64,000 nucleotides of DNA from Bryum argenteum. Lineage: Eukaryota; Streptophyta; Bryopsida; Bryales; Bryaceae. Below are positions 7,460-31,942 of this stretch, one piece after another; within the stretch, counting starts at the first letter, position 1; each line of letters begins with the position of its first letter. Location of the stretch: assembly GCA_037043015.1 (NCBI GenBank), contig CM073323.1, positions 18,919,758 to 18,983,757 of the forward strand, read 5' to 3'. A program made the translations under genes and the position numbers. A model generated the notes under the pieces. That model was given only the letters and a program-made list of their open reading frames with translations, was not told the DNA's origin and made no database searches.

Positions 7460-7470
7460 AGCAGGAAATG
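7460..7470. repeat. Left target-site duplication of the 24.5-kb element
   Basis: AGCAGGAAATG, repeated exactly at 31932-31942. It lies directly outside the terminal sequence GGGAAACCACGGGTGTGAGCG. A duplication of 9-11 bp is characteristic of MULE insertion. Confidence 0.75.
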
Positions 7471-8131
7471 GGGAAACCACGGGTGTGAGCGTTGAGCGGT
7501 GAGCGGTGAGCGGTGAGCGGTAAAGTTCGAGCGGTAAGAAATAAAAATTTTAAAAGTTAATGGCCCTATTACCATGGAATAGGTGGTTTTAAAATTTTGA
7601 AATGGTTATTTTTAGGCATAAAAGTACCCAAAACCGTGGACATAGGGTACTGTATCCATTTCGATATATGGTAATGGGGTCCTACAATATTACATAATTA
7701 ATCCACATTTGCAAATTTAAATGAAAGTCAATTAAATTATGGGCTCGCATCATCATGTGTAACCAATTCAATTTAAATCAAATACAAAATATAAACCAAA
7801 AGTTGAGATAGCCATTTCGGTAATCAATAAGTTTTATTTATTGTTTTAGGATTTAGAGACTAATTAGGGCTGACGTCATCAATTTCCTCTTTCACATGTT
7901 AGAATTATATGCAGATGATTCAGTTTATATAATCTGAAAATTATAACTACGGGTCGTCCTTCCATGTCTCCTTGAAAGGTGAACAGAAAGACATTCATGA
8001 TTTCACGTGGCATTGTAGTGGTCCGAGTTCGATTCTCCTCGGCCTCGTTTGAGCGTTGCATTGCGTCGTGCTGCAGCTATCCTGAGCTATACAAATACTA
8101 GACTAGAACCCCTACCATCATTGGCAAGTTT
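7471..8131 (-). repeat. Left terminal region of the MULE-like element
   Basis: About 660 bp that recurs in opposite orientation at 46920-47637, at the 3' end of the second methyltransferase unit. It begins GGGAAACCACGGGTGTGAGCG, then four GAGCGGT-type units, then AT-rich DNA, and ends inward with the block GCTATCCTGAGCTATA. It contains GAGTTCGATTCTC, which resembles a tRNA B box, but the arm does not fold like a tRNA. Confidence 0.75.
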
Positions 8132-8280
8132 CAAAAAATTCAAACTGGAAATAAAGAAATGTTTAGAAACTTTTAGTTGGCATCGAGTTTAAAAGTTTAA
8201 CATTTACATGAATTAAGAAACTGTAAAACGTTGATAAGTAATAGGTAAACGTCATCATACTACTAAAATCATAACACCCA

Positions 8281-8850
8281 GCTGGAAGTTTACTTTTACT
8301 TTTACTTTATCTTTTACTTTATCTTTTACTTTATCTTTTACTTTATCTTTTACTTTATCTTTTACTTTATCTTTTACTTTATCTTTTACTTTATCTTTTA
8401 CTTTACCTTTTATTTTACCTTTTACTTTATATTTTATTTTACTTTTACTTTAATTTTACTATTACTGTTACCTTTTACATTTTATGTTACTTTTTACTTC
8501 TATGTTTACTTCTTAACTGTACTTTTACTTTTCCACAGTGTTTTTGAACGTTGAGTTTGTGGGTTTGTGAAAATGCACTTGTATGTTGCAATTGAGCTTA
8601 CACACAACACATTGCAAACTTTTTTGACACATTTGAGTTCAACACTTGAAGATTTATGACAAATTGTGAAATTGTGAAGTTGTGAAGTTGTGAGGTTGTG
8701 ATCTTGGAAGTTGGAATTTACAAACTTGGAGTTGCAAAATTGCAAGTTCAAGTTGTGGAGATTGAAATTGCAAGTTTTCAAGTTGAAATTGCGAGTTTTG
8801 AGGTGAGATTGCAAGTTTTGAAGTTGAAATTTCACAAATTGAAGTTCAGC
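8281..8850. repeat. Helitron 2 5' tandem repeats
   Basis: 8281-8475 is a pyrimidine-rich array of CTTTTACTTTAT units, about eight of them nearly perfect. 8640-8850 is a degenerate 20-22-bp array around ATTGCAAGTTTTCAAGTTGAA. Both match the reverse complement of copy 1, but the first array is more regular here. Confidence 0.85.
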
Positions 8851-8870
8851 TGCTGCGCGAGACAGCAGCT

Positions 8871-9046
8871 GGCGCAATTCTGCGTTTCACAAAACTGCGC
8901 CCGCGCGAACGAACCGCGCGCGCAACTGCGCGCAGTCGCGTGGTTCTGCGTGAATTGCGCAGTTCGCGCAGAACCGCGCGACTGCGCGCAGTTGCGCGCG
9001 CGGTTCGTTCGCGCGGGCGCAGTTCTGTGAAACGCAGAATTGTGCC
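8871..9046. repeat. 176-bp GC-rich palindrome in Helitron 2
   Basis: Near-perfect inverted repeat centred near 8958. The outer arms are GGCGCAATTCTGCGTTTCAC and GTGAAACGCAGAATTGTGCC, and the inner arms contain CGAACGAACCGCGCGCGCAA and its complement. It would form a very stable cruciform or RNA hairpin. T-rich repeats (TTTTTTG units) follow at 9057-9115. It lies between the tandem repeats and the Rep gene. Confidence 0.9.
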
Positions 9047-9576
9047 GATTGATGTTCCTGTTTTTTGTTTTTTGTTTTTTGTTTTTTGTTTTTTTATTTT
9101 TTATTTTTTTTAAATTTTTTATTTTAAATTTTTATTTTTTAAAATTTTTTTTAACCTAATTTTTTTATTTTTATGGAATGAATGATTCGTGAAGCACAGT
9201 GCATTGGAGGTAAACTTCTTGGAGTGGAGCAAGTGGTGGTAAACTTCTTGGAGTGGAGCAAGTGGTGGTAAACTTCTTGGAGTGGAATCTCTTGGAGCAC
9301 AAGTCTAAAAGGTATTATCATTGACTTTACTCTTGTGATTTTAAAAGATTGAAATTAGGATTTATAGTAGGATTTTTTCCTACACTAAATCCTACTTTAT
9401 AATAATTTTTGAAATCTCTGTTGGATTTACAGGTTTAGAATAGGATCTTTGTTATCCTATATTAAATCTTATATTTTTGATAACCTTCGTTGAAATTTTG
9501 TAGACTTTATATGATTTATGATAGGATCTTCATCATCCTATCATAAATCCTACTTTTTTTATTGTCTTTTTAGACA

Positions 9577-12500
9577 ATGGCACGTGCTTTGTCTACCATT
9601 GATAATTTTCTAGATGTCAATGTTGATAGTGTTGGATCAATGTGCATCCAATGTCCAAAATGTTTGGCATTTCGTTTTAAAAAAGAAAAAAATACCATTT
9701 GTTGTTACAATGGCAAAATTGCCAATGAACATGTTAATCACCCAATTGTCCATCCAATGCTCAATGAGCTTTATATGGGCACTACACCTAAATCTCGAGA
9801 GTTTATTAAATATATTCGAAAGTATAATCAAGCTTTTGCATTTACGAGTATGAGAAGTAAGTTTCAATCTAGCCAAGTTGAAGGTAGAGGGGTATATACT
9901 TTTCGTGTAAACGGAGAATTATGCCACCACATTGGAAATTTACAACCCGATTTAGACCAAGGTGCTAAATTTGCACAAATTTATTTTTTGATGATGGTTT
10001 ACAAACGAATCGTCGTATGGAGATTTTTGATGATCTTCATCGTGATACTCTTAATAACATTCAAGAAGTTTTAGAATCCGTAAATGCATTAGTTCGAGGT
10101 TTTAAGTCTTCGCGTGATGTTCTTCAAAGGGGATCAAACATGGGACTTCGTATCTCCGGTGAAGTTCCTTCGGAGAACATCCCCGTCGATATAATCGCCA
10201 AGTAGTTCCGTCCAGTTCTTGTCGCTATTGTTCTTGACGAACGAACAAGACATGAATTTAGGTAGAGATATTATTCTTCACCAACACGGTGGAAATTTAC
10301 TACGAATAAAAGAAATTCACCCAAACAGACGATGCTTTATCCTATCCTTTGTTATTTCCAGGAGAACAATGTGGATGGTCACCAACTTTTAAAGCAAATC
10401 TTTGGAGTGACTTTAAAGTCATATGTCCAATATTTGCTTCAAAAGCGACCGAATCTAATGTACTACATAGGGTCGGTAGATTATTCCAAAAATATGTGGT
10501 AGATCAATATTTACGTGTAGAACATGAAAATTTGTTATTCATTAGACAACATCAAAATGAACTTCGTGCAGAATGCTATCAGGGGATTGTAGATGCTTTG
10601 CAGGAGGACAATAGAGCACGCATTGGGCGTCGCATTGTCTTACCCGCAACATTTATTGGCTCCCCTCGATACATGCAAAAACTTTTTCATGATAGTATGG
10701 TTTTGGTTAGAGTTTTAGGAAAACCCGATTTGTTTGTGACAATGACGTGTAATCCGACCTGGCCTGAGATTCTTAATGAGCTTGAACCAGGTCAAAGTCC
10801 TCCAGATCGTCCAGATGTTGTTGTACGTGTTTTTGAACTTAAATTAAAAACTTTGATGGATGAGATTACCAAGAAGAATATCATGGGAGAGACAATTGCT
10901 TTTTGTTACACTATTGAGTTTCAAAACGTGGTCTTCCTCATGCACACATTCTTCTTTGGTTAAAAGACAAGGTCAATGACTGTCACCTTATAGATAGAAT
11001 AGTATGTGCTGAGATTCCCGATTTAGATAGACAACCTCAATTGTATGCCGCAGTTGCCAAACATATGATGCATGGACCTTGTGGTTTGGACAATCCCAAT
11101 TGTCCATGCATGGAAGACAATAGTAGATGTACAAAAACTATCCTATGCAAGTTCGAGATACTACCGAGGTAGATGGTGATGGTCATGTTTTATACCGTCG
11201 TCGAAACCAAGGTCGATATGTCGAGAACGTGTACATGGACAAATCGTTCGCTTAGACAATCGATGGGTTGTACCATACAATCCATATTTGATAGGTCGAT
11301 TTAATTGTCACATTAATGTGGAAATTTGTAGTTCGGTAAAAACAATCAAATACCTCCACAAGTATATTTTTAAAGGTCCGGATCGTGGTATTGTAGAAAC
11401 AGATGAAGTTGTAGATGAGATTAAAGATTTCTTGGAAGGTCGTTATGTGGGTGCCAAGAAGCATGTTGAGACTTTTTGGTTTTGAAACTAACAATAAGAG
11501 TCATAGTATTTGTCGTTTACCCGTTCACCTTCCCTGGTCAACAATATGTTACTTTTGAGGAGGCAACATCTTTGCAAACGGTGATTGATCAAAATCTTTG
11601 AGACTAAACTCACTAAGTTTTTTGAGCTCAATCGCCACATTCGTGCCTTGATTGCTTCCGCAATCAAGGCAATCATATGCTTCTTCGTTACATGGATCTT
11701 CCACTCCATTACAAGTGGGATGTGAAGAAAAACATGTGGGAAAGAAGACTACGTAATATTAAAGTTTTTGGTAGGATAAATATGGTTCCCATGGGTACCA
11801 AGTATTTTACTTACGTTTGTTGTTGACTCATGTTGAGGCACCAACTTCATTTGATGACCTACTTTGTTTTAATGGTATTGTGCATTTAACGTACAAAGCC
11901 GCTTGTATTGCAAGAGGACTTTTACATGATGATATTGAGTGGGAAAATTGTCTACAAGAGGCAACTCTCATTGCGTTGCCTAAGCAAATTCGGCGGTTGT
12001 TTGCAACACTTCTTGTGTTTGGACAACCACTAGATCCTCTTAGTTTATTAAGGAGTCATCTTGATGCTATGTCGATGATTGGCGCAATGATCAAAATCGC
12101 TATTGCAAAGCGATTTTGTCCATTGAAGAATATTTGTCATCATCGATAAACATCTTACTGATTTTTTAATATCGAAGAATTGAATGAGTTTGGTTATCCA
12201 AACATTGTTGATGTTGGTAGTGATACCAATGACAATATTGATTTTGATAACCAAAACATTACTTTTCTAGAAGAGGATGTAGGTAGACTCAACGAAGAAC
12301 AAAACATTGTTTTTAATGCAAACCTGACCTCTCATTTTTTAAATTCGATTCTTCAAATAGGCTTTTCTTTTTAGATGGTCCTGGTGGTACAGGTAAGACT
12401 TTTTTGTATAACACCATATTAGGTTATCTTCGTGGTCGTAATGTCAAGTGTATGGCAATGGCAAAAAGTGGAATTGCCGCATGCCTTTGAATGAAGGGCT

Positions 12501-13620
12501 TAACGGCACATTCATCTCTTGCTATTCCTTTACAGTTGCACGATGCATCAATTTGCAACATTAGTGCCCAATCTACATTAGGTCAAAGCTTACGTGAAGT
12601 ACAATTGATTGTACTTGATGAAGCTTGTGCTGGACATCGTTTTATGTATGAAGCTATAGATAGATCTTTGCGAGATATACGCGGTATAGACAAATCAAAT
12701 GGCGCGTGTTGTAGTTTTATATGGTGGTGATTTTCGCCAAACTTTGCCCGTAGTTGTATGCGTGGAGGTCGCAAGCAAACCGTTGAGGCTTGCTTGCGAC
12801 ATTCATATTTATTTCCACCGATGCAACATTTTCATCGACCACTAACATGCGTTTGCAAAGTCAACCGGACTTTCAACGATTTTTGCTAGATATTGGTGAA
12901 GGCAAAACGGTCCAAAGGTAGATTTACCGCCCAATTAGTTGCTCCGGAAATTCTTTAGATGGTCTCATTGATGCTATTTTTGATGATCCGGTTGATTTTT
13001 CCGAACGTGTCATTTTGGTCATTTCAAATGATGATGCTCAAGAAATCAACCGAAAAATTACCGATCGTTTACCCGGTGATGTGCATCAATGTTTTAGTGC
13101 TGACTTTGTTCACGAGAATGATGAACATGCTCATCATTATCCCGTAGAGTTTTTGAATTCTTTACAATTGAGCGGTTTGCCTCCTCACCAATTAGATCTT
13201 AAATGTGGTCAATATTTGATGTTGCTAAGGAACTTGAATCCGCAAAAGGTTTGTGCAATGGTAGTCGTTTGCGTCTTTTGCAAGTGTCTTCCAAAGGTGT
13301 TGTTGTGCGAAATTGTAGAAGGACGCTATCGTAGCCAAGAGGTGTTGATTCCTAGAATCACCCATCATTGCAATGATAGCCGCTTGCCATTCACACTTTG
13401 CCGGAAACAATTTCCTGTCACTGGTGCTTTTGCCATGACAATTAACAAATCGCAGGGCCAATCATATGATCGAGTCGGCATTTATCTTCGTAATGAAGTA
13501 TTTAGCCATGGTCAATTATATGTGGCATTGTCTCGTGGTAGACATCCTCGCAAACATTAAGGTTGCCAATGACAACAATGAAGCCGTGAGAACGGTGAAA
13601 AATGTTGTTTATCATGAGGT
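9577..13620 (+). pseudogene. Helitron Rep/helicase (RepHel), frameshifted
   Basis: Helitron transposase joining an HUH Rep nuclease and a PIF1-like helicase. It starts at 9577 (MARALSTIDNFLDVNV). The Rep part includes FVTMTCNPTWPEI (about 10735), the HUH block around 10930 and KYIFKGPDR (about 11360). The helicase part includes the Walker A block GPGGTGKTF (about 12375), LIVLDEA (about 12605), GGDFRQTLPVV (about 12727) and the C-terminal block TINKSQGQSYDRVG...YVALSRGR (13440-13550). Several indels break it: one base is lost near 9989 (copy 1 has GGATGATGG) and one A is lost before the HUH block near 10928. More breaks and missing segments lie between 11.2 and 13.0 kb. It cannot make a full protein. 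Confidence 0.9.
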
Positions 13621-14600
13621 TTTTACATGACATTGTCATGTATAATATATTATTAATTCCTCTTAATTTTTACACCAAACAAGTGGATGGAAAAGTTAAG
13701 AGTTTGTTTCAAACTCGCATGTTTAGGGTTCATGCACGCTTCGGCGACGTCCCCTTCCATCCAATTGTATTCTTTTGGTGTTTATCATTATCATGTTATT
13801 GTTTCAAATTGTTTCAAATGAGACATCTTACAAGTTGTGTAAATGAAGATTGCTATACATAACCGGTCAAGAACCACAATTGACATGTAACACACAAAAA
13901 ACATGCATAAAAACAAATGTGATGAACATATTCTCAAGCCTTCAAAGTTTAGACTCTAAATTCTTCTTTTTGAAGACACTATAAAATGTCGATTTTCGAA
14001 AAAAATTGTCACAATCTTTTTTCTATCCTACAAGATGAAAATGCACCTAATAAGTTCGAATCCGAAGTCGGAATTCAAAAAAAATATGTATTTTGGGAGA
14101 TAATAACTCACTGTTAAATTAATTCTGCACAAAATACAGTTTCATCCACACTGGATGAAAATATGTGCGATAGATGAAAAATCGCGAAGGGATGACAAAT
14201 CTCACAGTGGATGCAAATCGCGCGTTGAATGGAAAAATGTTGGGGATGCAATGGATGAAAAATAGGTTATGGATGAAAGTTGTTGCAACCTCGCTCCCCA
14301 CTTCAATTCTTTTACCACTCACATTTTGCTCAAAAATGATCGAAATGAAGCGCCGTTTGTTGCATCATACTTGAAAATGTTAAGATTTTGTTTGAGGAAT
14401 GTCTGCTTCGGTCATATTGCATTCTTTTGGTGTTCAATTATATTGTCTCCCTTGAAGCAATGTATCATTCAATTGAAAAAGGTTATACTTTTGATTTTAC
14501 AATTCAATGAATGTATATTTTCCAATGCAAACATTCTTTTGTTACCTTCCTTATTTTTTTACTTTCCTTTTGTGTAATAATATAAAAACCACATTAAAAT

Positions 14601-14640
14601 GGTTGGACTAATGCGTTGCAACGCAAGCGCCAACCGCTAG
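14601..14640 (+). other. Helitron 3' terminus (hairpin plus CTAG)
   Basis: GCGTTGCAACGC is a 12-bp palindrome at 14613-14624, and the element ends CCAACCGCTAG. An outer pair, GGTTGG at 14601 and CCAACC at 14630, could lengthen the stem. In Helitrons this hairpin stops rolling-circle transposition. Confidence 0.85.
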
Positions 14641-15275
14641 TATATATATAAAAAAAGGTATAGCAAAACCACACGTATGACCAATGCCGTAGGTCAACTA
14701 TAAATATATGACCCTACATGGTCCAAACCAAAACTAAGAAAATAAAATCACCTAGGAAGCTGATGGTGAACGACCACTAAAGTGTTGGTCACACTGATCA
14801 GCCTCATCGTCTATAAACGCAAGCACTCTTGAGCTAAAGCGTTGACGTCTACTCTTGTCGATAAGACGGGAGAAGGGGCGACCACAAAATTCTTGAGCTA
14901 TCCGCTCCGCATAAGATGGAAGGGTGAAAGTTTGCGGAGGATCAGCTGAGAGACTTCCGTTGCCAATCAAACGCTCGGTTCGAACTCGATCCTAAAAGTA
15001 CGAAAAGTCAATACCAATAAATTTCAACCAATTGAAGGTGACAATAGAAGGGGAGGAAAGTAAGAGATAAGTACGCACAAAATGTTGGGCGTTGCTTCTT
15101 CAAAAGCGGTTCGAGATGTGTCACCGCTGTCGTAGTCATATCTTGGACCGAATCACCGCTTTCTTCCTCAAAAGCGGTACCATCGACGTATGCCGATAAA
15201 AAAAAGTCCGTCAAATATCTCTTCATCGCCTTCAACAAAGAATGAGATGACGGTTTGATCGCGCGCGTGTCGTGA

Positions 15276-18200
15276 GTTACTGCATCGAGAAGACCAAAAA
15301 CAAAGACAATTTTACTTATACAACCAAGCAAAATGGTTCGCCTTCCGGGTAACGTTCCACGGAGATTCTCAAGTGTGAAGACCAAATGAAATCCGGACCA
15401 ACAACCTATGGACGCTTACAACGACGAAAAAACGTTCTAATCTACCGGATTAGGGAACTCGGGGAGGGGGTTGGGGTCGACTAGCTCCCAAACCCAAAAC
15501 CCCAAGGAAACCAAACTTTTGCGTCCGATCCGGTGGTTTTCTAGATTGAACGGCCTCCCCCGTCCGGGAGGGGGACTTAGTATCCTGTGGTGATTTAGTT
15601 TAACCTCCGTAAATCCTCGGAGGGGTCTTTCCTATTTATTTGGAAGAGCGCGAATGTCGCTCCCTACCGGTTGATTAAGGTGTCCGGAGTTCCACCCTTA
15701 GTATCTCGACTACCCTTTCCTTCTCTCTCGGAGTTCCTTCCTTGCTACTCTTGCCACTATCCGGATTCTCACCCAAACAAAGGGTCACACAAAGAAGGGC
15801 CCGGTTTCCTCCCTAACTGAGCCAACGAGGGGGTTGTTTACTCGTGACCCGGATCACAGTGGGTGGTATCCGCCACTTAATCCATTAGAGTTCCAATAAC
15901 ATAGAACCGGGTTCGTACCCTACTCCCGGGAGAGGCTTTCTCAACCGAACATCCCATTCGGGAGGTTGGCAATCGTGTTAGCGTTTCTTGCTAACCCTAG
16001 TACCTCACCCCAACCCGGTTAGTGTATCACCTTCCTAGGTGACGACTACTCCCGATATGCTCTAGTACTTCTCACACGGACCTCTCACCGACTCTGTCAC
16101 TCTCCTAGAGACCTCTCCCGGGTTCCTGGGATTGCAACCACCGAATCTACGAGGGACTTCCCGTATCCACGACCCGGCTCGGACATCAACTACGCACACA
16201 CAATTACAAGATCACGACTTACACACAATCACGAATTTTAGGTGCAAAGATCAACCTTTACTCACAGTGCGGAAACACAGAGAAGACCCGAAGGACTCCG
16301 AGAGTCTTCGGTAAAGTCAGAGGGTCCCGGTTTTCCCGGAAACCCTATCGATCCGGAATTCTCGCCCGAGATTCCCGGTGAGTGGCCAAAAAGGCACCTA
16401 CTAATCCTACCCATTCTAACCTAACTAACTACTGACTAGTGTCTTCTTCCGGCGGCGTGGGTCGGCTCGAGGGGTTTGACGGCGGCGTATTCATCCTGGA
16501 AGGGCCTGCCAACTCGCGGGGAGGAATCTCCCTCCCTGATCAACCCGGGGTGGATGTAAAATCTCGGATTTTACTGCGTCCTCCGGCTCTTCCACCTGTC
16601 CCGGAGTGCCTTCAACTTCGATGGAGGGGGCACGGGGTGGACTTCCTCTTCTTCATGAGGAACCACGGGTTCCTCCAGCTGTACCTGAGGGCCCACGGGT
16701 TGGACCTCAACTTCCTCTTGAGGGACCTCGGGCTCCTCCTGCTGCCCTTGTTCGCCCGGATCTCCCACCTCGTTGACTTGGGCCTCCGGGGTGAGGTATT
16801 ACCTCTTCAACCTTGTTCGTGAGTACGCCTTTCTCCCGCGACATCGCCATCCGGGTGCTCATCCGGTTGTTGAGAGGGGTTCACCTCTCCTTCCACCACC
16901 TGCTCCACCTCGGAGGGACCGGGTAATCCTGGTTCTCCCGAGGTATCCGCTACGAGGGGAGTCGCAGCTCGTTCTCCTCCCCCCGTTCTCCGGAATGGCA
17001 CCGCTCGACCGGGATCCTTTGCTCCTTCAAGCGGTCGGGGGCACTTCTTCTATTTCCATGGGCACCGCCCCTCCGGCACCTGCTGGGGTGCGATTACCTC
17101 CTCTTCCGGAAGGGCTTCCCGAATCTCCACGTGGGGAGGGCCCCAACACCTTCCAGGTGAGGGTGCGGAACTCCTTGAGACACTCAAGTTGATGCCGGTG
17201 GCGTGCCTCTGGCGGCTCCGAGGATTGGGGTGATTCACCGATCCCAATCCGAGCATCATAGAAGGCCGCCTTCGTTTGGGCCTCTGCATCCGGTTGCGGC
17301 ACCTTCAAGATGGAGTGCGGACTGTCCGATCAATGTTCTGCAACCTCCGGAGTGCAGCCTCCTGCTCCTCCACAATCCTCCCGAGGGCTTCCACCTCCGG
17401 ATGTGCCTCCGTGTCCGAGGGGTCCGGTCCACACCGGACTCCCACGGATGCCTTCTCCTTTGGCCGGGCCTTGGCGCTACTCCACCTTCTCTCTTCTCAG
17501 CTTGGCCGTTTCCCGCCTCAGCTATCTCCTCAGCCCTTCGTTGCTGGGCTCTTGTCCTCCGGATGAGGGGGACGACCTCTTCTTCTTCCTCCTCTTCCTC
17601 CTCTGCATTTGGCATGAACAGGAGGGCATGGTTTGAGAAGTCCGGGTAGGATTCACCCGGTTACTTCCTCCTTCCCCGGTGGCCACCGACCCTTTGTCTT
17701 TGGGTCCGGCTTGGCTGGGTCCCACCGCTCGGGCTGTCAGTGGCTGGTTCGGTGACCCCTCCAGGTCGGTAGCCCTGGACTTGCTCCATCTCCTCCCGGA
17801 CTCGGAAGAGGTTGGCCCTGCGGATCTCCTGGATGGGAGGTCGTGTTTCTCGTGCCAATAAAATATCTCCCGGTCGGTGAGGATGCCGTGCCGTTGGTAG
17901 AGATGGAAGATGTAGGGGCCGGGGGGCACCCTTCCGATTCCCGATCTTCATCACCTCTCGCCGCACCACCTCGGGGATGATGTGGTGCCACCCGACCGCA
18001 TCCGCCCATCGTAATTTCCCAAGATAGCCTTCATCGCCTTCACGGTGCGGGTGGTCGGCTTGTCCGGCCGAGTATGGGGAGAAGAAACCGGAGGAGGCGC
18101 GTCACCGGGGTCCTTGCGCCTCTCCGGTTTGAATCCGTCCTTCTCCGTGGGCCCCTGCGAAACCGATTCCTCAATCCGTCGTCGCCCTTCTTCTTGATGT

Positions 18201-19081
18201 AGCCGATTGGGGAGTCCGGAAATTTGTAAGTCGCCCTCCAATGGCGGGGTCCCGATTTGTCCGTCTTCCCCTCGAGGGTGCGTCACGTACATCTCGGGAA
18301 GCGGTGGGTGATCAAGCTCGATGATGGTCTGTCCGCCAAGTCCCACGGGGCATCGTCTGACCCCGGCGCACCCCATCCGGAGGAGGTCATCCTCGCCTCC
18401 GCTTGGGTGCAGTGGAAGCTCGGGTACTGCGGCTTCACCGACTTGAGGGGATCGGCATCCCCGGCCGCCACGGGACCACCTCCCTCCTCTTCGGCATCGC
18501 TCCGGTATCCTCGTAGTCGCCCGGAACTCTTCTCTCCCCGCTTTCCCGACCGATTCCGGTAGAAACCCTACTTCCCGAAACCCTAATCTCTCCAAACTCG
18601 CTTTTCCAACACTCTCGGATCGGGCGAGCTCTCAAAATTGCTCTATCTCTCAAAACGCGCGACCGAATGGCCGAGAATGGAGGCGGCGGCTCCTAATAAC
18701 AACAAACCGAACTCTCCTTCCGAGACATCATCACCAGGCTTTCGAGACGTACACCGGGAAGTACCCGGTCATCATTGAGCCGCCGGTGATTATGTCGGCG
18801 CCCGCGAGTTTTCGGCCCTTTCTCCTCCGCCGACCGGCGGCTCCGGTCATCAACCCTAGGGAGAACCGGGCCATCCGGCATCTCGGGGTATCGGCCGGGT
18901 ATCAACCCGGCTATCCAAAGAAGCTCTAAAATCCCATAAGGTTAGCCGGAAGAATCTTAACACAAAATTACTACCTACGAACCGGTTTAAACAGGCGGTT
19001 TTTTATTCCTATTTGCTAAATCAGCTATTTTACTCCTAATTAATTGCTAAAAACAAAAATATTGGAGAACAGGGTTCGACA
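15276..19081 (-). mobile_element. GC-rich 3.8-kb insertion in copy A
   Basis: Homology between copy A and copy B breaks after GGTGCTTCCGTGATTGCCTGC (reading minus, at 19082) and resumes near 15275, within an exon that is continuous in copy B. The inserted piece begins TGTCGAACCC and ends ...CTCACGACA, so it has TGTCG/CGACA ends like an LTR element. I could not find two direct LTR copies or a clean 5-bp duplication. Its centre is much richer in G and C than its surroundings. Type unresolved. Confidence 0.5.
16500..18653 (-). pseudogene. Decayed GC-rich coding region of the insertion
   Basis: Overlapping minus-strand open stretches change frame several times. Protein-like blocks are ELDHPPLPEMYVTHP (about 18320), VKAMKAILGNYDGRM (about 18030) and FHLYQRHGILTDREIFYWHEK (about 17910-17845), followed by Pro/Gly/Arg/Glu-rich sequence. 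I do not recognise a family; a retroelement gag-like protein is possible. Plus-strand open frames in the same interval look like mirror images caused by the base composition. Confidence 0.35.
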
Positions 19082-22000
19082 GCAGGCAATCACGGAAGCA
19101 CCTACATACCAGCAACCAACATCAGAACTACAGTACTGAATAAATTGAATGAGAGTTGGTATTAGCAACAACTAACCAGTACTAGGGCTCCGTCAAAGAC
19201 GATTCCCCGCTCGTCTGTGAGAGAATCTATAAAACACTTTGATGAAGGAGGGATCCTTCTCTCGAGCCACGCCACGGAGTACCATCTTCCTTCTTACGAA
19301 TGGAGTCATTGCTCGCTAAATTGAAAACATGGTCTTCCTCGTCGGGAAGAATAGGCACACCTGCGTACTCTTTCGCAACTTGTCTTGTGGAGAATCTCGT
19401 GGCAAATGACTTCCGAACAAAAACTTTAATGTGGAAGTTGTGTGTCTGCAAAATTCAATAGATGAGAGAGATTTAAAGAAACGTTGTAAATAATCATAGA
19501 CGATGATTTTAATGCAGAATAATAAAGACCATACCGTTTTCACGTGTGGGTTTGTTGAGGCCATTGGCATGGGATTATATCCCCACCAATCTCGCACCAT
19601 TCGGAAATCGAAAGCCTTCGACTCGGCATCCAGAGCTTTCTCGACTCGACGGTCCTTGGGATGCATAACAAGTATCGCACCCTCGTCTGTCAAGTTGTAG
19701 AAAGCAAAAAGAACACACTCTCGAAGTAGCTTTTCTCACGCTTGTTCCATGACGGGATTTCGGCGGGCGACACGTCAGGTACGGGTAAGTTCTCGGGAAC
19801 GTCTGCGTAGAGGAGATCAATGCCGGGATGTTTCGTACCCATCTCCTTGCATGGGTACTTCCTGTCTTTTCCAATCTTTGGAAATCACAGAAAATGACAC
19901 ATGTTGTAAGCGATCTATTCCCATCAAAATTTAAGAAATAAAAAAATGTAAGAAAAGAATTAAGACACAATACCTTTCTGATGTGGTTGATGATGTCCAT
20001 GACTTGTGTGTCCCAATCCTTGGTTTCATGAGTCGCCTTTTGAATGAAGCTCCGATGTCCCCTTTTTCCAAGTACATTGGAAGAGAAATTGTAATCTCGG
20101 ACGACAAACACTCAAAGAACATGCTTCGGTTCAAGAAATGGGAGTGAAGCGAACTTCTTTCCGGAGTTGTGATCGGTGTGTGATGATTGAGGAGGAGACC
20201 ACGCATTTGTAAGAGCGCTGCGAGAAAGTCGAGTCAATTGTCGACCGCGTCTACGTGCATTGTTGGTCGCACCATCCGATGCCCGAGTCAAATCGCCTTC
20301 TTCCGGACCTTGGATGTCATTGCGAGGGAGGAATTTCTTCGGATTCTTCTTGAAGATCTACTACAGCTCCGCTACGCGTTGCGTCGTTTTTGTTGGCCCG
20401 ACGTTTGAGCGGTTGAGCGAAGGAGGTGAAGAGAGAAGGGCAAAAAGCGGGCCGGGCAAAATGGAGAGGTCCTCGTCGTCGTCATCGTTGTCTATCTCCA
20501 TAGGTGCGGTGCCGCCAGCGCTTGTACCGAGGTTTCGAATAAGATGCTTCTCCTCCTTATGAACGGTTATCCTGGCACTCAAGGAACCAACCACCAATCG
20601 ATGGTTGTGTTGTGGTAAACCGCCTCTGTTGGTCACCGGAGAAGAAGGTGGAGGGATCGTTGGCGGCGAGACGTCATCGAACTCGACGGGAATGGACCAA
20701 GAAGCTAGTGCTCCTTTCGCAAGAAGCTCTTGTTTCAAGTACCTACATTCAAGGGAAGAAATTAGAATGACAAAATTGAATGATAAACAAAAATTATGTT
20801 ACATTGAAAACATAATAGATATACATACCGGAATAAAAGACGTTTTTTATTGTAACTTTGCCACCACCAATCCTTTGAAGATCGGAGCCTTTAATGAACC
20901 TTGGGCTAGCATTAAGAGAAAGGTAGTTCCCAAATGCCTTCTCCCATAAAAGCAACCTCCACTTCTCAACGTCTTTCGGATGGTTTTAAGACGGAATCAT
21001 TCCATTGAATGTTGAGATTGTCATCTTCCGCTAGTTTCTCGCAATTCGGTTGAAAGGGATTGCTCTAGTTGAAAAGAAGAATTTTCGTTAGAAATTAAAA
21101 TATTGTAAAGCCAAGAAAATAGAAAACACGGAAAATACATTTAAGTTACCTCGTGCCCAAAGTGATGCGCGATGGAGGAAAGCAAGCAATGATTTATCTT
21201 TCATTGGCCGGTCCTCCGGAAAGTGAATGCAGATCAACGAGCTTCGAGGATGATGAGTTCCACCATTGCGGCCACTTTCCTTGTAATCGAAGTGCACGTT
21301 CGTGGTGGCTACCATTTGCAAACGATCAATTGTCATATCCGGTTTGTGGTTATTGCTGTAATGAGAGTATATCTGCGCATGAAGGAGATTGACAAAGTTT
21401 GAATGTGATAAAGGTCAAAAAGACGATTAGGCTTATATTGAATTTGAGTAGAATGCGAAAAATACCTCTTTTGGGAATACTTTCCCAAGTTTGTTGTTGG
21501 CGACAAACCACCATTTTGTCGAAATTTTTGCCACGAATGGACTTAATTTCTGATTTGATGGCGTTGTCCATGGCACTCAAACTCCCGGCCCTTTTGTTTA
21601 TCCTTCGAACAGTGGCGTAGTAAGATGCTTCAGCCTCGTCGGATGCTTTCGCTAACCTCCTCTGTAAATAATTTATAACGTAGTTAAAAGGTGCAAAAAA
21701 TCGAAAGCAAATTATAACGATATAGCACATAAACATAAACCTACCGCATACAAGAATTTGACGAAAACGTCAAGTGTAACCGGATACCAAGTTTCTTTTT
21801 TAGCTTTGGCGTTCTTGCAAATTCTGTAATCCTCCTCCGGAAGATAAGGTCCTTGAAGTCCTCAAGTTTCGCTTTTCCAAATTTTCTCATGCGTTGTAAT
21901 TTTGCACACGACCGTCTTTCAACATGGTCATGTTCCGTAGACCTACACATCGATATCGATATCGATATATCATAGTTGAATATACAAGAACATAATTAGA

Positions 22001-23600
22001 ATGAATGTGACAAGTACTTACCAATTTATGTCGTTCATGGCGTCTAGGAGGAGATTGCTTTCTCCACGAGCATCGAGAACGATGCGATCAATCGATATGT
22101 ACCAAGAAGGATCCATCTTGTGGTACCTTTCAATATGACGCATCCAAGCGGTAACCGGTGGTTACCTTCGTACACATAATAATACTTGCCACTCTGGTGT
22201 TGAAGATCGTGATCGAGACTTGAAAGATCGTCTCGAACTCTTCATTTGCAAACTTTCCACGGAGGATTTGTCCACACCGCATCTTCACAAGAACTCAGCT
22301 TTCTCTCTCCCTTTCCTATCGAAGGGAGAAACGTACATCACCCGATCGCCCTCCCGATAGCCTTTGTTGAACTCATTCTCCAACTTCCTCACGTCTTGTT
22401 CGAAATAGGACGAATCTTAGGATAGCATACGAGACGACACAAAGGAATTAGCATGCGAGACTTTTTAACGAGTTTTGAATCGAAACCGCGTTAATGATCG
22501 CAATGGAGTCACTTTTGTGAATCATTCTCATTTCATTTGCACTCCAATCGGGATCTTTGTCTTGAAGATGAGTTGGCATATGGACGATTCCAACATTGAC
22601 ACTCCCGGCAACGGAGTGTCTTCATCTTCGAAATAGTGTCCATCCATCATGTTCTTGCAACGCTTGAGGATGACGGTGAATTTCGGAAGGACAATCTTCC
22701 GGGACTCCACCGCAAAGGTTACCATCATTTGGGAGAGATTCACGATCGTGTTCATCTCTAACGCACGAGAGAGGTCGTGCGGGAAGGAAGAAGAGGCGGG
22801 GTGGTATTGTCATCTTCATCGGTATGGACTTGAGCTATGTTCATCCGGCATTATAGAAACCAAGTACAACACAACACGCAAAAAAATAAGAATGTGTGAA
22901 GTTAACAAAGCGATAAGATATAAGAAACACAACGACTTTATAATTAAGTTCATGATAAAGTCATCAAATCATCGACAATACAATTGAGTTGAGCGCAATT
23001 TTGCGGCAAGACGGGGAGAGCGTCTTGGGGTAACTCTTGCTAATGCATTTGCGTAAGTACGTCTAGCTTTGGCCTCATTTTGGTTAATTTGCATGTTAAC
23101 CGCTCGTGCAAACCGATCAACGTCAACACGTGAAGTGAGACGGACGGGGAGGCCGGAGGAGGAGTTTCGGTCATGAGAAGACAAAGGTATCACTAAACGA
23201 CGAGACTCTACTACAACCATGACATGATCTCTCAAAGTTGACAAATCGCTCTCGGCAAGATCGAAATCCTCCTCACGATGAACTTTCATCGCCGCTTCAA
23301 CGGATCCCGCAAAACCTCAAAAATCAAAGGTAAGTAATTTCCCAGTAAGCGAACACCAATATTGAACATTAACTTTCATATACCAAATAGTCATATGTAA
23401 TGGAACAATGAGTATGAAATTTCAAACTAGAAAAATTAAATGATGGCTACACTTGACCCAAGCAAACCAAGAACAACGCTCCACTTCAACCCCAAAAACA
23501 AAAAACAAAGCACTACTTCCACAAAGAAAACCAAGATCAGGCCTCAACTTAGCCGAAATTCACTAACTTTCAATCAAGTAAAAGAAAATGTTGAAAGATT

Positions 23601-24815
23601 GAAAATCACAAACGAGGTAGCCTCCCCCAGCCTTGCGTGGACGAGAGGCTGGCAGGCAGGGCTCCACTTCCCCGCAAAAGCCATCACCAGGACCAAGCAA
23701 GCTCACAGCAGGGCCCCTTCGTGCCAACATCTGCTTCCCCCGGGGGCTCAAGTCCGAGCAAGCATAATCGAGAGGATTCAAGGGCTCGACCTTGGTTCCA
23801 CATGCGCATCCCGAGAGGCTCAAGTCAAGCCAGCTCTCTTTGCGACGTGGTGTATCAAGGCGTGCCATCGTGCCAATACCGCCCGGGGCTCGAATTCCAT
23901 CAACCAATCTCAACAACGGGGCTTGACTTTGCCCGAGAAGAACAACACGGGGCTCTTGACCAAAAACGACCAACCCCCCTCCCGTCAAAGGTCTTTGCAC
24001 AAACTTCACAAAAGTGCCAAAAAACAGGATCGAAAATCACAAACGAGCTAGCCTCCCCCCTTTGCGTGGACGAAAGGTCGGGCAGGCAGCTCCGCACTTC
24101 CCGCAAAAGCCATCACCAGGACCAAGCAAGCTCACAAAGGGCCCCCTCGTGCCAACATCCGCTTCCCCGGGGCTCTCAAGTCCGAGCAAGCATAATCGAG
24201 AGGATTCAAGGGCTCGCCTCGGTTCCACATGCCGCATCCCGGGGCTCTCGAAGTCAAGCCGCTCTCTTTGCGACGTGGTGCTGGGCGTGCCATCGTGCCA
24301 ATACCGCCGCCCGGGGCTCGAATTCCATCAACCAATCTCAACAACGGGGCTTGACTTTGCCCGAGAAGAACAACACGGGGCTCTTCACCAAAACGACCAA
24401 CCCCCCCAAAGGTCTTTGCACAAACTTCACAAAAGTGCCAAAAACAGGATCGAAAATCACAAACGAGCTAGCCTCCCCAAACCTTGCGTGGACGAAAGGT
24501 GGCGGCGCGCCTCCACTTCCCCGCAAAGCCATCACTGGGACCAAGCAAGCTCACAACAGGCCCCTTCGTGCCAACATCCGCTTCCCAGGGGGGCTCAAGT
24601 CCGAGCAAGCATAATCGAGAGGATTCAAGGGCTCGGCCTTGGTTCCACATGCCGCATCCCGAGAGGCTCAAGTCAAGCCAGCTCTCTTTGAGACGTGGTG
24701 CTCGGGCGTGCCATCGTGCCAACAAGCGCCTCGAGGGCTCAAATTCAATCAACCATTGGCAAGAACGAGCTTGACTTCGCCCGAAAAACATCGGGAGGGC
24801 ACTCTCACATAACAT
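23601..24815. repeat. Three tandem copies of a ~425-bp unit
   Basis: Units start at 23601, 24032 and 24452 with GAAAATCACAAACGAG, giving periods of 431 and 420 bp; the third is shorter. Each unit contains phrases such as GGACCAAGCAAGCTCAC, CCGAGCAAGCATAATCGAG and GGCTCAAGTC. The 325-codon plus-strand open frame across it is a product of the repeat, not a gene. It lies just upstream of the methyltransferase-like relic, possibly in an intron or promoter region. Confidence 0.85.
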
Positions 24816-25639: not shown

Positions 25640-26065
25640 GGCCTGCTCGGCGGGGAAGCATGATGTTCGGGCGGGTACCATGGCCTCATCGGACATCGGG
25701 CGGGTACCATGGCCTCATCGGACATCGGGCGGGTACCATCGAATAGCGGACATCGGGCGGATACCATGGAAGATCCGACATCGGGCGGTTACCATGGGGA
25801 CGGGACATCGTTCGGATCGAAGGGGACCCGCATCGGGCGTATATATTCGGAAGGACATGTGGCGGATACCATGTGGACGGACGTCGGGCGGATACTTAGG
25901 CGGACATCGCGGATAACATGGGGACGATCATCGTGCGGATATTATGGGGATGGTCAATGGGCGGATACCACCAAGACGGACATCGGGCGTATACCATCAA
26001 GACGGACATCGGGCGGATACGATGGGGACGGACATGGGGCGGATAACCTTGGGACAATACCTCTT
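25640..26065. repeat. ~27-bp GC-rich minisatellite
   Basis: About fifteen degenerate units of the form CGGACATCGGGCGGATACCA plus TGGGGA. The array produces open frames coding GGY/DIG-type repeat peptides on the plus strand; these are not credible genes. It sits between the two divergent genes of the MULE-like element. Confidence 0.85.
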
Positions 26066-26380
26066 TATTAAATTTTCTAGTACAACACTATGTCTCCAAT
26101 GAATTCATAAACACAATGTACTGTATTTTTATTACCGCACTTAGGTTGTACACTTAATATAAATATGAATAAAATGTATGACACCAAGAGATCATGACAC
26201 TCGTTAATATTTTTCCAGAAAGTCCTAATATTTGCATCCATCTCTCATACATTTGAATACGCAAGTTATGTGAATTTGAATTACGCTTGTTACGTATTAT
26301 TTGCGATCTTACGACATATATTACTCGAGTCCTATGTCCTTATATATCAAGTATCTATATCATGTCAAAATTGAACTACG

Positions 26381-27103: not shown

Positions 27104-28285
27104 ATGCTGCCTGCAATGAGATAACTTATCACTCGTCTCACATACCGAGTCCAAAACTTCTCTATGCATATGAAGTTGTCGAACCCTAATTCTCAACTCC
27201 ATTATATAAGTTGCTCCATGCGGCTACGATACCCTAATCACCCAACGCGTATTCCCTAATTCCCGCCATCATGGTGTCTGACAATTCAAAATAAGCTAAC
27301 TTCCGACCGCATCTATTATCCAACTAAACCTCGACAATGACTCGCCGCCACTTTACCGTCTACCCATACTTTTTTAATCGTGGAATCCAATATTTTTAAT
27401 CGTTTGTATTTAATGCGCTTTTCTCGATTCATATTATTTAAGTATTTTAAGTAAAGTGCTTTAAAATCATCATCTTTGACGATTAAGAGTATCCGATATC
27501 TGGACTTTTTATTATAAGAAATAACGTTTGATATGTATTCAATACGTGCACGCAAACACCGTACACCAATGTCTCATATTTGAACATCCGAAACGCACTG
27601 AGACTCTCTTTCTCCGCACACTTGTTGATGTTGTCTTCTTCCCCTACGCCTATCATGGCATCCTCTACTCCCTTACCTCCCCCGCGCGGGCGTCATTGCC
27701 ATTAGGTCCAAGACTTAAGTCCTCCCATCCGCATTCCTCAGGGGTGGACGGAGTGGTCAAGTCACTCCGTCTTGGCTAGCAATTCGTTTCGGTTTTGATG
27801 AGTCATCTCTTTGGTTAGAGAAACATGTCATGGATCCAAACACTAATCTTGTCCAAGATTTCCGCGTGCTTGTCGAACCAAATACCTAGACAAGAATTGT
27901 AGAATATATAAGCTACAAATGACAAGATCGATCGGTATCGTTCGGCATGACAGAACCTGTCATGAACGCCTCCACCGTCCTCCTCACTCCTCGTAGTTCT
28001 TCTACCATCTCCACAGCTTGTTCCGATTCTTGCTCGTGTCAAGGTCGAACCCGGACTCAAGTCCGAATCGATATTTCGATTCATCCGACGATGAAAGAAA
28101 AGCGTCCATGCGATCCGTCGACTATCATCGAATCGCATCCACCCTCGTCCTGCAGTTACGAACGCGATCGCAGAGAACCACCCCCCTTCCTCTTCCCGCG
28201 TCCAAAGTCGTAAAAACCAAAAACATTCTTTCCTCTCTTCGTAGACTTGGTAGTATGTCTCGCAACAAAACTATCCTCAAAAAAT
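27104..28285. other. Upstream region of the SWIM transposase
   Basis: No firm gene. A 9-bp hairpin (ACGGAGTGG, then TCACTCCGT with one mismatch) is at about 27749-27771. An open frame in 28018-28287 (ending MSRNKTILKK) may be the N-terminal part of the transposase in a shifted frame. Confidence 0.4.
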
Positions 28286-31200
28286 AGATTTCCATTCCAT
28301 TCGTACTCACAACGTCTCTTTCCTGCCTCCCACTTTCAACGGTGATGTCCTCTATGTTCTCCCTCCCGTTGTACCAACCACTGCTGTCAAGGTAGCCAAA
28401 TCTATGGAAGGGATGGACAAAAGATACGACGGTCATGTGTGGACCAGGACAATGACTACTAACATTAGTAACAACCTCGGTTTGTCTTTCCGCTACTCTA
28501 ATTGTGTTGGTCATCTTCAATGCCACAATGGGAATTGCGGCTACTTACTACGGCCTGACCGCAGAGCGGGTGAATGAGGTGGAGTTCGAGGGCTTTACTA
28601 AGGACCCCTTCCCGATCGGCCACGCGCCTCCTCCTTCCTCAACACTAGTCTGTAAGATCTGCAAAGAACCTCCCGTTTGTGTTGCTGTATGCCCTTCTAA
28701 AATATTCTACATATTTGGAGATGAGAGTCAAGAGCGGGCGTGTGTGCATATCGGTACCTACGAACATCCTGTCAAAAAGTCGGAGATTACGAGATGTGCA
28801 CGTAAAATAATTGATGAGTTAATAGAGGAGCACGTAGAACGTAACCCACAAGCTACAACGTCCAAAATAGTCATGGAGGCTAGCAAGGACTTACTCGAAA
28901 CTTACTTCTCCGTGAAGAAGGTGACCTGTAACCTCCAAGCTCACCCTCCGGGAGCTAGAACCTATCTTCGATCAATGTAAAGAGTTGAACTCTCCCAGGC
29001 GTCGTAATCGTATTACCACTTTTAAGCACTTGCGCAGAGATACGGTGTCCTCGATGGGATCACCAAACTTCGAGGCCTCGGCAATCGGGCTTACATCCAA
29101 CGTAACCGGTTCCCGGGCCAAGGAGATGAAGGTGACAAAGTTTTCATTTTCAAGATGTCCGAGGTCGGCCCGGAAGGTGTTGACCTTGTTCGTCGATCAC
29201 GATCCGGAGGCGACAGTCCCACGCGTGGTTAATGTTCGACCACGTCAAGCGTGTCAAGAATCGACCTCCATGGCGTGCCACGTTTATGACTCAAAAATCG
29301 CCGCATTCTAACTATTGCATGTCGTGATTTCCGATCAAGACGGAGAAGCTCAAATCGTCTTCTGGAAGAACCTAAACCACGTCATGGGCAGGAACGGGGT
29401 GGAAGCGCCGCAGTTTCAAGGGTTCATGGCCGACAGTGCGCAAGCCAACTGGAACGCTGTGCGGATCATTTACGGCTCCGGTGACCCTAAAGTCCCTATG
29501 GAAGGCCGCGAACGAACTTGCTACTTCCATTGGACGCAATCCCTAGAGAAACACACCAAACAATACATCGTGCACGAGCTGCAAGATCAACATCGACATC
29601 TTTGTAAGCAATACAAGGATGCACGCACCATGGCTGAGGCGGAGACAAGATACTGGGCGATCCGAGCGTGGTGGGCGTCGGCGCAGGCCACCTCGGAAGT
29701 TGGATTAGGTCACCTTGAACACTGGCTGGCATTCTGGCACTTCCGATACAGACAATGGGGTGGCTTCATGGAACTAGTGAGTCCGCAGCCACTATACAAT
29801 TATGTTCACGTGCGTTTATGTCATGGAAATCCGCAAATTTTATTTACTTTTTTATCATAGAGTATTTATTTTTACGATTACTGTAACAACATTTTAAAAT
29901 ATTTAAACTTTTAAAAAATCTATTTTTAGATCAGCCTTTCGGTGACGAAAGTCTAACAACTCTGGATATCTTGACCAAGTTTTTTTGTTACTAAGTTAAA
30001 TGTCTTTGCACATTACAGGAAAATAAATATTCGGCAGAAGAGCTGGCGGAGATGCCTTCATGTAACCTTGCGGAATCTATCCATAACAAATGGTTGCAAG
30101 CGTCCGGCAACAAGGGTGGGGACTTGTACGTTGCAGCTGTTGATGATTATGTTCGTGCTTTCCTCCAAGTTGTCGGTTACCACGACTTCAACGGAGGTGG
30201 CAAGGGTGGTAGTGGACCAACATCTGAAGAATCACATTGCTTCGTCTTGCCCATAAAGCTTCACGAATCAAGCGATCCATCGAGCCTCACAAAGCAAAGG
30301 TGTCGACTATCCAGAGCCGAGAAGATTTGTACCGAGACGCCCACCTTGAGGGGCCGAGGTGTTCGGATCCAAGAAACGTAAGGGCGATGTTCCGATTGGG
30401 CCGATGATGAAACGCACACGACTGACACCGTGAGCTACTCACGTCCCGAATTGGGAGAAGGGTTACCCGAGCCTTGGGCGAAAATCGAGTACTATCCATG
30501 AAGAGGATGAAGTTGAGGAGCCACCGACATTTCCATCCACTTTTCTTGGACCTAGTATTGAACGTGTGACCATTGCTTCGGAGACTAAAGTTGACGAAAG
30601 GTTGTGGCACATTGCCCGTTTGAGGAGAGAATTTCGCCAAGGCTTGTTGGGGTATCATGCGAAAGAGTAAAAAAGATGTGACTCACGAATTATTCGAAGG
30701 GGAAGGCGACCGCGGCTCAACTTACACCGGAGTATGGCAACGCCCTCAAGAGGGGCCAAGAAAAATTGATCGATTCTTCTTTTTTTTTGTGCGGATGATA
30801 TTGTGGTGTGTGAAGGGTCATCGTCGCAAGTGGATTGAGCCATTCTCTCAAAGCGAGGATAGACCCCCTATTCCTTCAATATGGCCTGTTAAGATAGGGA
30901 CTAACCTCACACGAGATGAAATAGAGGCGTTGGAGAATGCGGGCTTTCGACTACCACAAAAAGAATGACTTCCTACGAACCGTACTTTCAATAATGCTGC
31001 CCCACCAAGAAACTTGTCCCATATTCTTGTCCCGGAGAAGCCGGACGTGTTCCCGAGGTCAAGAAGATCGAAGAACATGAAACGCATTGCGGCGATGACT
31101 TCAAAGCACATGAAGAATATTGAGTCCGCCACCTCAATGCGGGCCAAAATTAAAGGTAAACCATGATCCCGCAGACCAGTTTTGGGTGTATCGTAGACTT

Positions 31201-31399
31201 GGAGTCGGATTCGGATGCGCTTTATAGACTATCAATTAGTAAATTCCCGGATTGCTCATGCCCGGTGTTCAAGAAAACAATCTCTTCGTTAGGACGGAGA
31301 GATCCATACCGACCTTGCAAGCACCTATACTACATCACGGTATTGGTTTGCAAATTTGATCCGGATGCGGAACCTCTTCATCCACGCGGCCACTCTTAG
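28286..31399 (+). pseudogene. MULE-like transposase with SWIM zinc finger
   Basis: Blocks in order: FLPPTFNGDVLYVLPP (28321); a cysteine block NCVGHLQCHNGNCGYLL (about 28502-28555); FKMSEVGPEGVDLVRR (29150); the catalytic-core-like block GFMADSAQANWNAVRIIYG with its aspartate near 29431, then RTCYFHWTQSLEKH (29515); an intron with GTGAGT at 29777 and CAG at 30018; SCNLAESIHNKWLQ (30056); and a SWIM motif, C-S-C at 31253-31261 and C-K-H at 31318-31326. SWIM fingers are usual at the C-terminus of MULE transposases. Stops and frame changes near 28577, 28980, 29300 and 30380 make it dead. It faces the right end of the flanking element, opposite to the methyltransferase-like gene. Confidence 0.65.
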
Positions 31400-31639
31400 T
31401 TTCAATGAGGTGAAGAAGATTCTGGAGGGAGGAATCCTAGACCATGCTCTGATTAGAATGCCTTATATCTCCTCATCTACGTACGCTATATGTTACTATT
31501 ACGATTGGGTGCTCCACACTACATGTGATATTTTTTTCAAATCTTACTAAAACTTATTATACCATTACATACATGTACAAAAAACCTTGCCAATTTGTCT
31601 AACTCAAAGTACTACTCACTTAGAAATATTACCTTAGAA

Positions 31640-31931
31640 ACCTCTTAACATTTAAAAATTTGTGATTTGCTGTCGAGTTTTGCCGCTCAAGTCTCACAAA
31701 ATTCAGGGAATTTCAGCCTTATTTCCACGGGTTTGGGTCACTAAATCCACGGTTATAAGTCTAGAATATTCAAATATTCTTGAGAATATTCGAAAATTAT
31801 TCTCAATTTTTTTTGAAAAAACTATTTTTAGAAATATTTTTGCTAAAATACAAACTCCCCACTAAAAATTCAAAACCTTACCGCTCACCGCTCACCGCTC
31901 AACGCTCAACGCTCACACGGTAGCAACGTCC
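31640..31931 (+). repeat. Right terminal region of the MULE-like element
   Basis: It contains CCACGGGTTTGGGTCACTAAA (31727), then AT-rich DNA, then CTTACCGCTCACCGCTC and CAACGCTCAACGCTCACAC ending near 31916. It is the inverted counterpart of 7479-7525. The last bases (GGTAGCAACGTCC) differ from the left end. Confidence 0.65.
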
Positions 31932-31942
31932 AGCAGGAAATG
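31932..31942. repeat. Right target-site duplication
   Basis: AGCAGGAAATG, an exact copy of 7460-7470. Confidence 0.75.

Follow-up and report, generated by a model that had tools for sequence, protein, structure and literature searches.

A MULE-like transposon family of Bryum argenteum carries, beside its transposase gene, a putative ParB-like pseudo-methyltransferase gene

Introduction

A stretch of 64,000 nucleotides from Bryum argenteum (Bryopsida; assembly GCA_037043015.1, contig CM073323.1, positions 18,919,758 to 18,983,757 of the forward strand; hereafter the window, to which all coordinates refer) contains two divergent genes between inverted ends, one resembling the transposase of a Mutator-like element (MULE) and the other a DNA amino-methyltransferase. 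The locus raises the question of whether these parts form a single mobile element and, if so, what a methyltransferase-like gene does in it. An earlier examination of the letters of the window (hereafter the sequence-only reading) had proposed one MULE-type transposon of 24.5 kb. Our favored answer, to which we assign a probability of about 0.45, is that the element is a cut-and-paste transposon of a MULE-like, multi-copy family, whose minus-strand gene would encode a pseudo-methyltransferase accessory protein, DNA-binding or S-adenosylmethionine (SAM)-sensing, that probably shields the element in the manner of VANC.

Results

One element flanked by 10-bp target-site duplications

The whole element occupies positions 7470–31931 (24,462 bp with two nested insertions; features without a strand are given without one) and is flanked by the two copies of a 10-bp target-site duplication (TSD), AGCAGGAAAT, at 7460–7469 and 31932–31941. 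The GAGCGGT-type terminal repeats are located at 7483–7527 (+) and 31874–31918 (−) and are inverted relative to each other, as had been proposed; these terminal arms are 45 nt each, are 96% complementary, and start 13 bases inside either end, with differing outermost bases. The direct repeat previously described as 11 bp is exact at both ends, and the sequence AGCAGGAAATG was found exactly twice in the window, once at each end of the element (0.07 occurrences expected, for the window only). Comparison with ten other copies, however, rules out an 11-bp duplication, since the eleventh base (G) already belongs to the element, as its first base, and the duplication proper is 10 bp.

The whole genome (258,844,377 bases in 25 contigs) was searched with the outermost 441 bases at either end of the element, which yielded lists of 40 left-end and 42 right-end matches (the best 40 of 618 and the best 40 of 718 first-look candidates, respectively, were scored). 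Among the matches listed, 18 of the 40 left ends have a right-end partner in matching orientation 10–55 kb away, and a perfect 10-bp direct repeat stands outside the ends in 17 of these 18 pairs, namely the window copy, ten copies read whole, five others, and E18 (both flanks). Near-identical ends are shared by many copies of the family. Four of the six more diverged relatives that were sampled were reached at both ends, and all four have a perfect 10-bp TSD. The search suggested by the sequence-only reading therefore returned full elements with duplications of the predicted kind.

These counts also bear on the possibility that the two ends and two genes are not one unit and came together by chance or by separate insertions. 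The sole pair lacking a TSD, E19 (C2:34539451–34561908), has ends from two different lineages, which would fit such an origin; it is perhaps a recombinant element. The TSDs in 17 of the 18 listed pairs rule out two unrelated insertions, and both genes lie inside 10 of the 11 copies read whole, so that we regard this explanation as having a negligible chance of being correct. The claim of a single element was accordingly borne out.

The minus-strand gene and its changed catalytic motifs

The ParB-like/amino-methyltransferase-like gene extends over positions 15074–23220 (−). Pieces of all 11 coding exons were recognized, the last being split by the second nested insertion, and several GT-AG junctions were observed among them. 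A five-row profile of the C-terminal pieces matches DpnA (E = 1.1e-5) with colinear motifs, and the same profile gives a colinear alignment with CcrM at E = 0.012, which is below usual significance; in it, IDLIFAD[V/A]PENL is aligned with VDLIFADPPYNL of CcrM. Four of the five rows are matched at E ≤ 1 by PF01555 (best 3.4e-6), and four of five by phrog_3008 (best 2.8e-7). The row of the window family alone (lineage A) is weak (E = 0.015–0.017 for PF01555 and 0.14 for DpnA), as is a DNA methyltransferase match in NCBIfam (E = 0.039). The similarity extends over the domain, with motif IV ahead of motif I, as in beta-class amino-methyltransferases, and the large methyltransferase-like gene expected on the strand opposite to the transposase was in this respect recovered.

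The sequences that define catalysis in this class are different. The exon at 19535–19863 (−) carries an NPMP motif and, at the motif IV position, DVPE. All 11 A copies (the window copy and the ten others read whole) share the same codons at motif IV, with a frameshift nearby in E8; among the diverged relatives D1–D6 and the older relative B introduced below, DVPE recurs in D2, D4, and D5, DAPE takes its place in D6 and B, D1 is frameshifted at this point, and D3 has GVPE after a stop. In total, 16 of the 18 copies have D[V/A]PE and not one has DPPY. At motif I, lineages A, D, D6, and B have FDWS[P/A]STG and the ancient C lineage has LDCSAATG, so that both [DNS]PP[YFW] and FxGxG are absent. The glutamate of IAVEADEE, which follows motif I and which we presume to take part in SAM binding, is invariant in the five rows.

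The earlier description of a DNA-methyltransferase-like gene thus holds for its homology and for its being a regular part of the family. The gene has neither the usual catalytic motif IV nor a complete motif I, and because of this the name DNA methyltransferase would be a statement of ancestry and not of activity. A working enzyme with an unusual motif IV, marking the element's own DNA with N6-methyladenine or N4-methylcytosine to hide or regulate it, would explain the fold-level homology, which runs in the proper order from motif IV through motif I, the purifying selection over the whole domain (see below), and the invariant glutamate. We nevertheless consider it distinctly unlikely, given that glutamate replaces the aromatic residue of [DNS]PP[YFW] and serine the first glycine of FxGxG in A, D, and B/D6, and that the N4CMT enzyme of bdelloid rotifers loses its activity once SPPY is changed to APPA (PMC8885841).

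The N-terminal part of the protein contains a GNHR motif, and its ParB-like region falls in the exon at 22021–22780 (−), whose frame is broken in the window copy. The ParB-like profile phrog_1033 matches two of the five rows at E ≤ 1 (best 8.1e-4); searches of the PDB with the ParB-like peptide and with the alignment returned nothing useful. The gene therefore appears to be a fusion of a beta-class amino-methyltransferase domain related to DpnA with a ParB-like region, the latter on weak evidence. A Pfam match of one row of alignment A1 to PulA_N1 (0.0024) was taken as chance. An open reading frame (ORF) at 19578–20111, which overlaps exons 8–9 of the gene, matches NDC10_II at E = 0.0097.

The plus-strand gene and probable membership in the MULEs

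Five recognized coding pieces at 27655–31433 (+) constitute the MULE-like transposase gene. Its core at 29324–29782 (+), open in the window copy, contains FMADSAQANW...CYFHW...MAEAETRYWAIRAWW; across the pieces we read FMADSAQANW...CYFHW...AEAETRYWAIRAWW together with a SWIM-type CxC...CxH pattern, which lies in the C-terminal piece (30903–31433, +; broken in the window copy, open in E7 and D1). A CxxH follows the second acidic motif, as read by eye. All five pieces are matched without a stop in D1, and so are T1 to T4, the pieces reached, in D5; those of D2, D3, D4, and D6 have breaks. In D3 (L055), the core and C-terminal pieces lie in the opposite orientation to the N-terminal ones. We infer that this gene encodes the transposase, and the outward orientation of the two genes on opposite strands is as originally described.

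Assignment to the MULEs rests on three features taken together, i.e., the TSD, the CxxH, and the SWIM pattern. The duplication of 10 bp falls within the 8–11 bp typical of these elements, the terminal inverted repeats, often long in MULEs and missing from some, are present though short. The duplication and the SWIM pattern agree with the published ranges of MULE TSDs and SWIM domains (PMC6446971). No Pfam MULE profile matched the gene, the SWIM profile PF04434 remained below the cut-off (E = 0.051), the AlphaFold model of the core is poor and mostly helical (predicted local distance difference test, pLDDT, 41), and a PDB search with the core gave nothing useful. The missing Pfam match, the marginal SWIM score, and the poor helical model would also suit an element of another or a new DDE superfamily with coincidental 10-bp duplications; since the TSD, CxxH, and SWIM pattern jointly fit MULEs (PMC6446971), we hold this to be improbable. 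The MULE-type label is therefore retained on account of the duplications and motifs, as a weaker assignment than had been stated.

Relatives, selection, and exchange of modules

Both divergent genes are present in 10 of the 11 A copies read whole; in the remaining one, E7, the transposase core is missing and the second gene is present. Six diverged left ends (D1–D6) were chosen from the listed left-end matches and sampled with further stretches, and methyltransferase-like exons together with transposase pieces were observed in all six, D3 being rearranged. Right ends were reached for D1, D2, D4, and D6 and not for D3 and D5; the former four, read end to end, are 12.2–16.2 kb long. An ancient relic, C (L058, L064, and L065), adjoins D6 and, judging by two flanks, contains and is split by it. 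Its protein identity is 38–39% for the ParB-like exon, 31–35% for the methyltransferase C-terminus, and 45% for the divergent transposase piece, whereas its motif IV exon was not found. The occurrence of both genes in A copies, diverged copies, and relic C indicates an old partnership and answers positively the question, posed with the original proposal, of whether relatives carry both genes.

An older relative, B, lies in reverse orientation in the window itself at 39750–47629 (+), with its left end at 47601–47629 and a stop-containing gene at 39750–46235 (+); neither a transposase nor a right half of it was found. At 36968–37150 (−), the window also holds part of a third copy of the exon with methyltransferase motif I (59–63% identity).

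Over the 917 codons compared between the A consensus and B, drawn from 9 of the 11 exons, the ratio of nonsynonymous to synonymous substitution rates (dN/dS) is 0.16, two exons without a single frame being skipped and the exons with a defined ratio ranging from 0.09 to 0.28. The lowest ratios, obtained for single A copies against D, are 0.04 for exon 9 (E13), 0.03 for the transposase core (E12), and 0.07 for the SWIM piece (E7); these copies were picked for clean frames, which may bias the values downwards. Further ratios are 0.10 for exon 9 of A and D6, 0.14 for the ParB-like exon of D6 and B, and 0.17 and 0.22 for the transposase pieces of D6 and D1, while 0.46 for exon 9 of B and D6 is as expected for a decaying copy. 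Seven comparisons with saturated synonymous divergence (three between A and B, four among other pairs) yield no ratio.

Judged from these alignments, the minus-strand gene is under purifying selection (dN/dS 0.04–0.16). A host-derived passenger of no use to the element would be consistent with the broken state of the gene in the copies as assembled and with the frequent capture of host fragments by MULEs (PMC13317346). Against the A–D and A–B ratios and the recurrence of the same divergent gene pair in relic C at 31–45% protein identity, a passenger is very improbable.

Noncoding tandem arrays are located between the divergent genes in the A and D lineages (seen in E1, E6, E12, D1, D2, and D4). 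In the window copy, they comprise an array with a unit of ~428 bp (~420–428 bp over the copies) at 23597–24784 (2.8 copies) and a minisatellite with a 26–29-bp unit at 25667–26055. The larger array has 3.8 copies in E12 and 6.8 in E6; the rest were judged from interval length alone, which varies between 573 and 4145 bp across the 11 copies. The central arrays of D1, D2, and D4 are entirely unlike those of A, with units of 116–118 bp and about 500–550 bp.

Different parts of the element group the lineages differently. By their ParB-like exons, A copies group with D6 and B (83–86%) against D4 (61–64%), whereas by their methyltransferase C-termini they group with D2 (94%) against D6 and B (57–65%); these conflicting groupings indicate that parts were exchanged between lineages. 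Between A and D, the ParB-like exons and central arrays change together, and the ends with the methyltransferase C-terminus, as well as the transposase side, are 83–87% alike in DNA. Joint change of array and ParB-like exons is what would be expected if one recognizes the other; linkage would explain it equally well.

Broken reading frames and the CAG/CTG pattern

In none of the 11 A copies as assembled is every coding piece of either gene open, and the longest stop-free matches among them cover 164 of 253 amino acids of the ParB-like exon and 132 of 225 of the transposase core. The differences between these copies are unevenly distributed. At the left end, two single-copy differences fall in the first 250 columns of the alignment, compared with about 15 to 100 in other windows of 250 columns in the left part; the right end is less clean, partly as a result of repeat-length variation. 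We infer that the family moved recently. Stretches around CAG/CTG constitute 11% of the left part yet hold 882 of its 1803 differences, and 10% of the right part yet hold 852 of 2129 (the right-part count omits E7 owing to its deletion). In the window copy and L013–L032, the density of differences at CAG/CTG is 3.6 times the mean, the next being CGC/GCG at 1.6 times. Among shared differences, 12,090 of 20,706 column pairs in the left part and 20,115 of 34,980 in the right part conflict, so that the differences between copies are not tree-like, a pattern to which recombination between copies could add.

The crowding at CAG/CTG and the non-tree-like differences disfavor old genuine decay as the main cause of the broken frames. 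Simple deamination at methylated CHG sites was also rejected: transitions form the largest single class near CAG/CTG, yet insertions, deletions, and transversions together make up ~53% of the differences there in both parts. The pattern suggests instead that methylated CWG sites were miscalled in repeats beyond the reach of polishing, and that these base-calling errors account for the differences more than decay does, which in turn would imply a young, methylated family; real decay may explain part of the broken frames. The transposase had been called a relic, and its frames are indeed broken as assembled; much of the damage looks like assembly error.

Nested insertions and neighboring features

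The ten other copies read whole (9.9–15.9 kb) were aligned to the window copy, the long pairs E2, E10, and E17 standing outside this set. The window copy differs from them by two additional stretches, together ~10.2 kb of its 24.5 kb, and the core element is ~14.3 kb long; the 24.5 kb of the sequence-only reading is, as a size, inflated by these later insertions. The first is a Helitron of 6.4 kb at 8255–14640 (+), with a 5' TC, a 3' hairpin and CTAG, insertion between A and T, and Helitron_like_N and Pif1 domains; its absence from all ten other aligned copies rules it out as a part of the element. A Helitron fragment at the left edge of the window (1–2903) is 92% identical to it. The second insertion, of ~3.8 kb at about 15267–19082 (bounds approximate), ends near TGTCG...CGACA and is the one that interrupts the methyltransferase-like gene in its last exon. 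It includes a 214-amino-acid ORF without a Pfam match and a short 63-bp tandem pair (Tandem Repeats Finder), and self-BLAST detected no long terminal repeat-like sequence in it.

Elsewhere in the window, an open protein kinase ORF at 57565–58872 (−; PF07714, E = 2e-68) is probably a host gene, a DDE_3 transposase fragment is located at 52642–53142 (+; E = 1.5e-12), and a peptide at 36545–36736 (+) resembles, by eye, the RNase H region of retrotransposons. An Rfam scan of the window at gathering thresholds found nothing.

Discussion

What the second gene may do for the element can be outlined as follows. Its protein would combine a ParB-like region with an amino-methyltransferase fold of the CcrM/DpnA type, in which ordinary base methylation was presumably lost through the changes of DPPY to D[V/A]PE and of FxGxG to SxSTG. 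The protein may have been retained to act on the DNA of its own element, as a factor that binds DNA or senses SAM. Most likely it binds the element, perhaps at the central arrays, and the bound protein would shield the element from host cytosine methylation or relieve it, as VANC does in VANDAL elements. An accessory DNA-binding pseudoenzyme is, on these alignments, the most likely description of the product. The anti-silencing role is its boldest part, and in the full form, in which a bacterial-type ParB-methyltransferase was turned into a conserved pseudo-methyltransferase that recognizes its own fast-changing arrays and blocks or reverses silencing independently of VANC, we put it forward as a tentative and rather unlikely proposal.

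The main rival is a helper of transposition, in which the protein would bind the ends or arrays, or nick DNA through its ParB-like region. In lineages A, D, D6, and C, the gene neighbors that of the transposase, which agrees with such a role, as does the nicking of DNA by Bce_0392, in which an adenine methylase is joined to a ParB domain (PMC5512222). E7, which lacks the transposase core and keeps the second gene, could be held against it and does not discriminate between the roles. We regard a helper function as possible, at well below even odds.

Several observations weigh against the favored reading of a shielding pseudo-methyltransferase. The minus-strand gene is open throughout in none of the copies read across it, A or diverged, as assembled, and the selection of clean-framed copies noted above affects the lowest dN/dS values. 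ParB membership is weak, with no Pfam ParB match to the N-terminal part and a poor AlphaFold model of the ParB-like exon (mean pLDDT 41). The coupling of array and ParB-like exons may be mere linkage because the two adjoin, and no large central array was found in D6. A changed motif IV is no proof that all catalysis is lost. Finally, Pfam scans gave no match to PMD, DUF1985, or Ulp1, the VANC sequences themselves not having been compared.

Among known systems, the VANDAL MULEs of Arabidopsis likewise combine a transposase with an accessory gene, and their noncoding tandem repeats differ between families as they do here; VANC, unlike the minus-strand gene, is not described in that source as derived from a methyltransferase (PMC10398659). 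Sequence-specific loss of methylation upon expression is the mark of a VANC-type system. MuDR and related MULEs share the antisense second domain, the 9–10 bp TSD, and SWIM, while their listed extra domains include PMD, DUF, SET, FAR1, OTU, and others, the word methyltransferase being absent from the main text (PMC6446971). Bacterial and phage fusions such as Bce_0392 and the polyvalent proteins unite a ParB-like part with an adenine-methylase domain (PMC5512222), in contrast to which the gene described here is spliced, nuclear, and located in a transposon, with a changed motif IV and a weakly supported ParB-like part. Another eukaryotic case of a bacterial amino-methyltransferase with a link to the control of transposons is the bdelloid N4CMT, which differs in being a host gene with an intact SPPY and a chromodomain fusion (PMC8885841). 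With the beta-class adenine methyltransferases CcrM and DpnA, the gene has in common the colinear domain, NPMP, and a C-terminal motif I, and it has lost their catalytic DPPY and FxGxG. DIRS retroelements, with their Dam-like domain, are also mobile DNA carrying an amino-methyltransferase-like domain, and they belong to another element class and carry another methyltransferase family. Searches of viral contigs with methyltransferase and transposase-core peptides and with alignments A1 and A2 found no relatives, nor did a profile search of genome contigs with A1. The literature searches made turned up no account of a MULE that carries a ParB-methyltransferase gene, which does not establish novelty in print.

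For plant assemblies more generally, the CAG/CTG pattern is a warning that some transposons taken for relics may be intact and misread where they are methylated. The family itself is convenient for testing these ideas, with its many copies that have near-identical ends, its lineages with differing arrays, and the modules swapped between them. If the anti-silencing proposal is true, a genomic parasite would have recycled a class of DNA-marking enzymes into an escape factor that is apparently unrelated to VANC.

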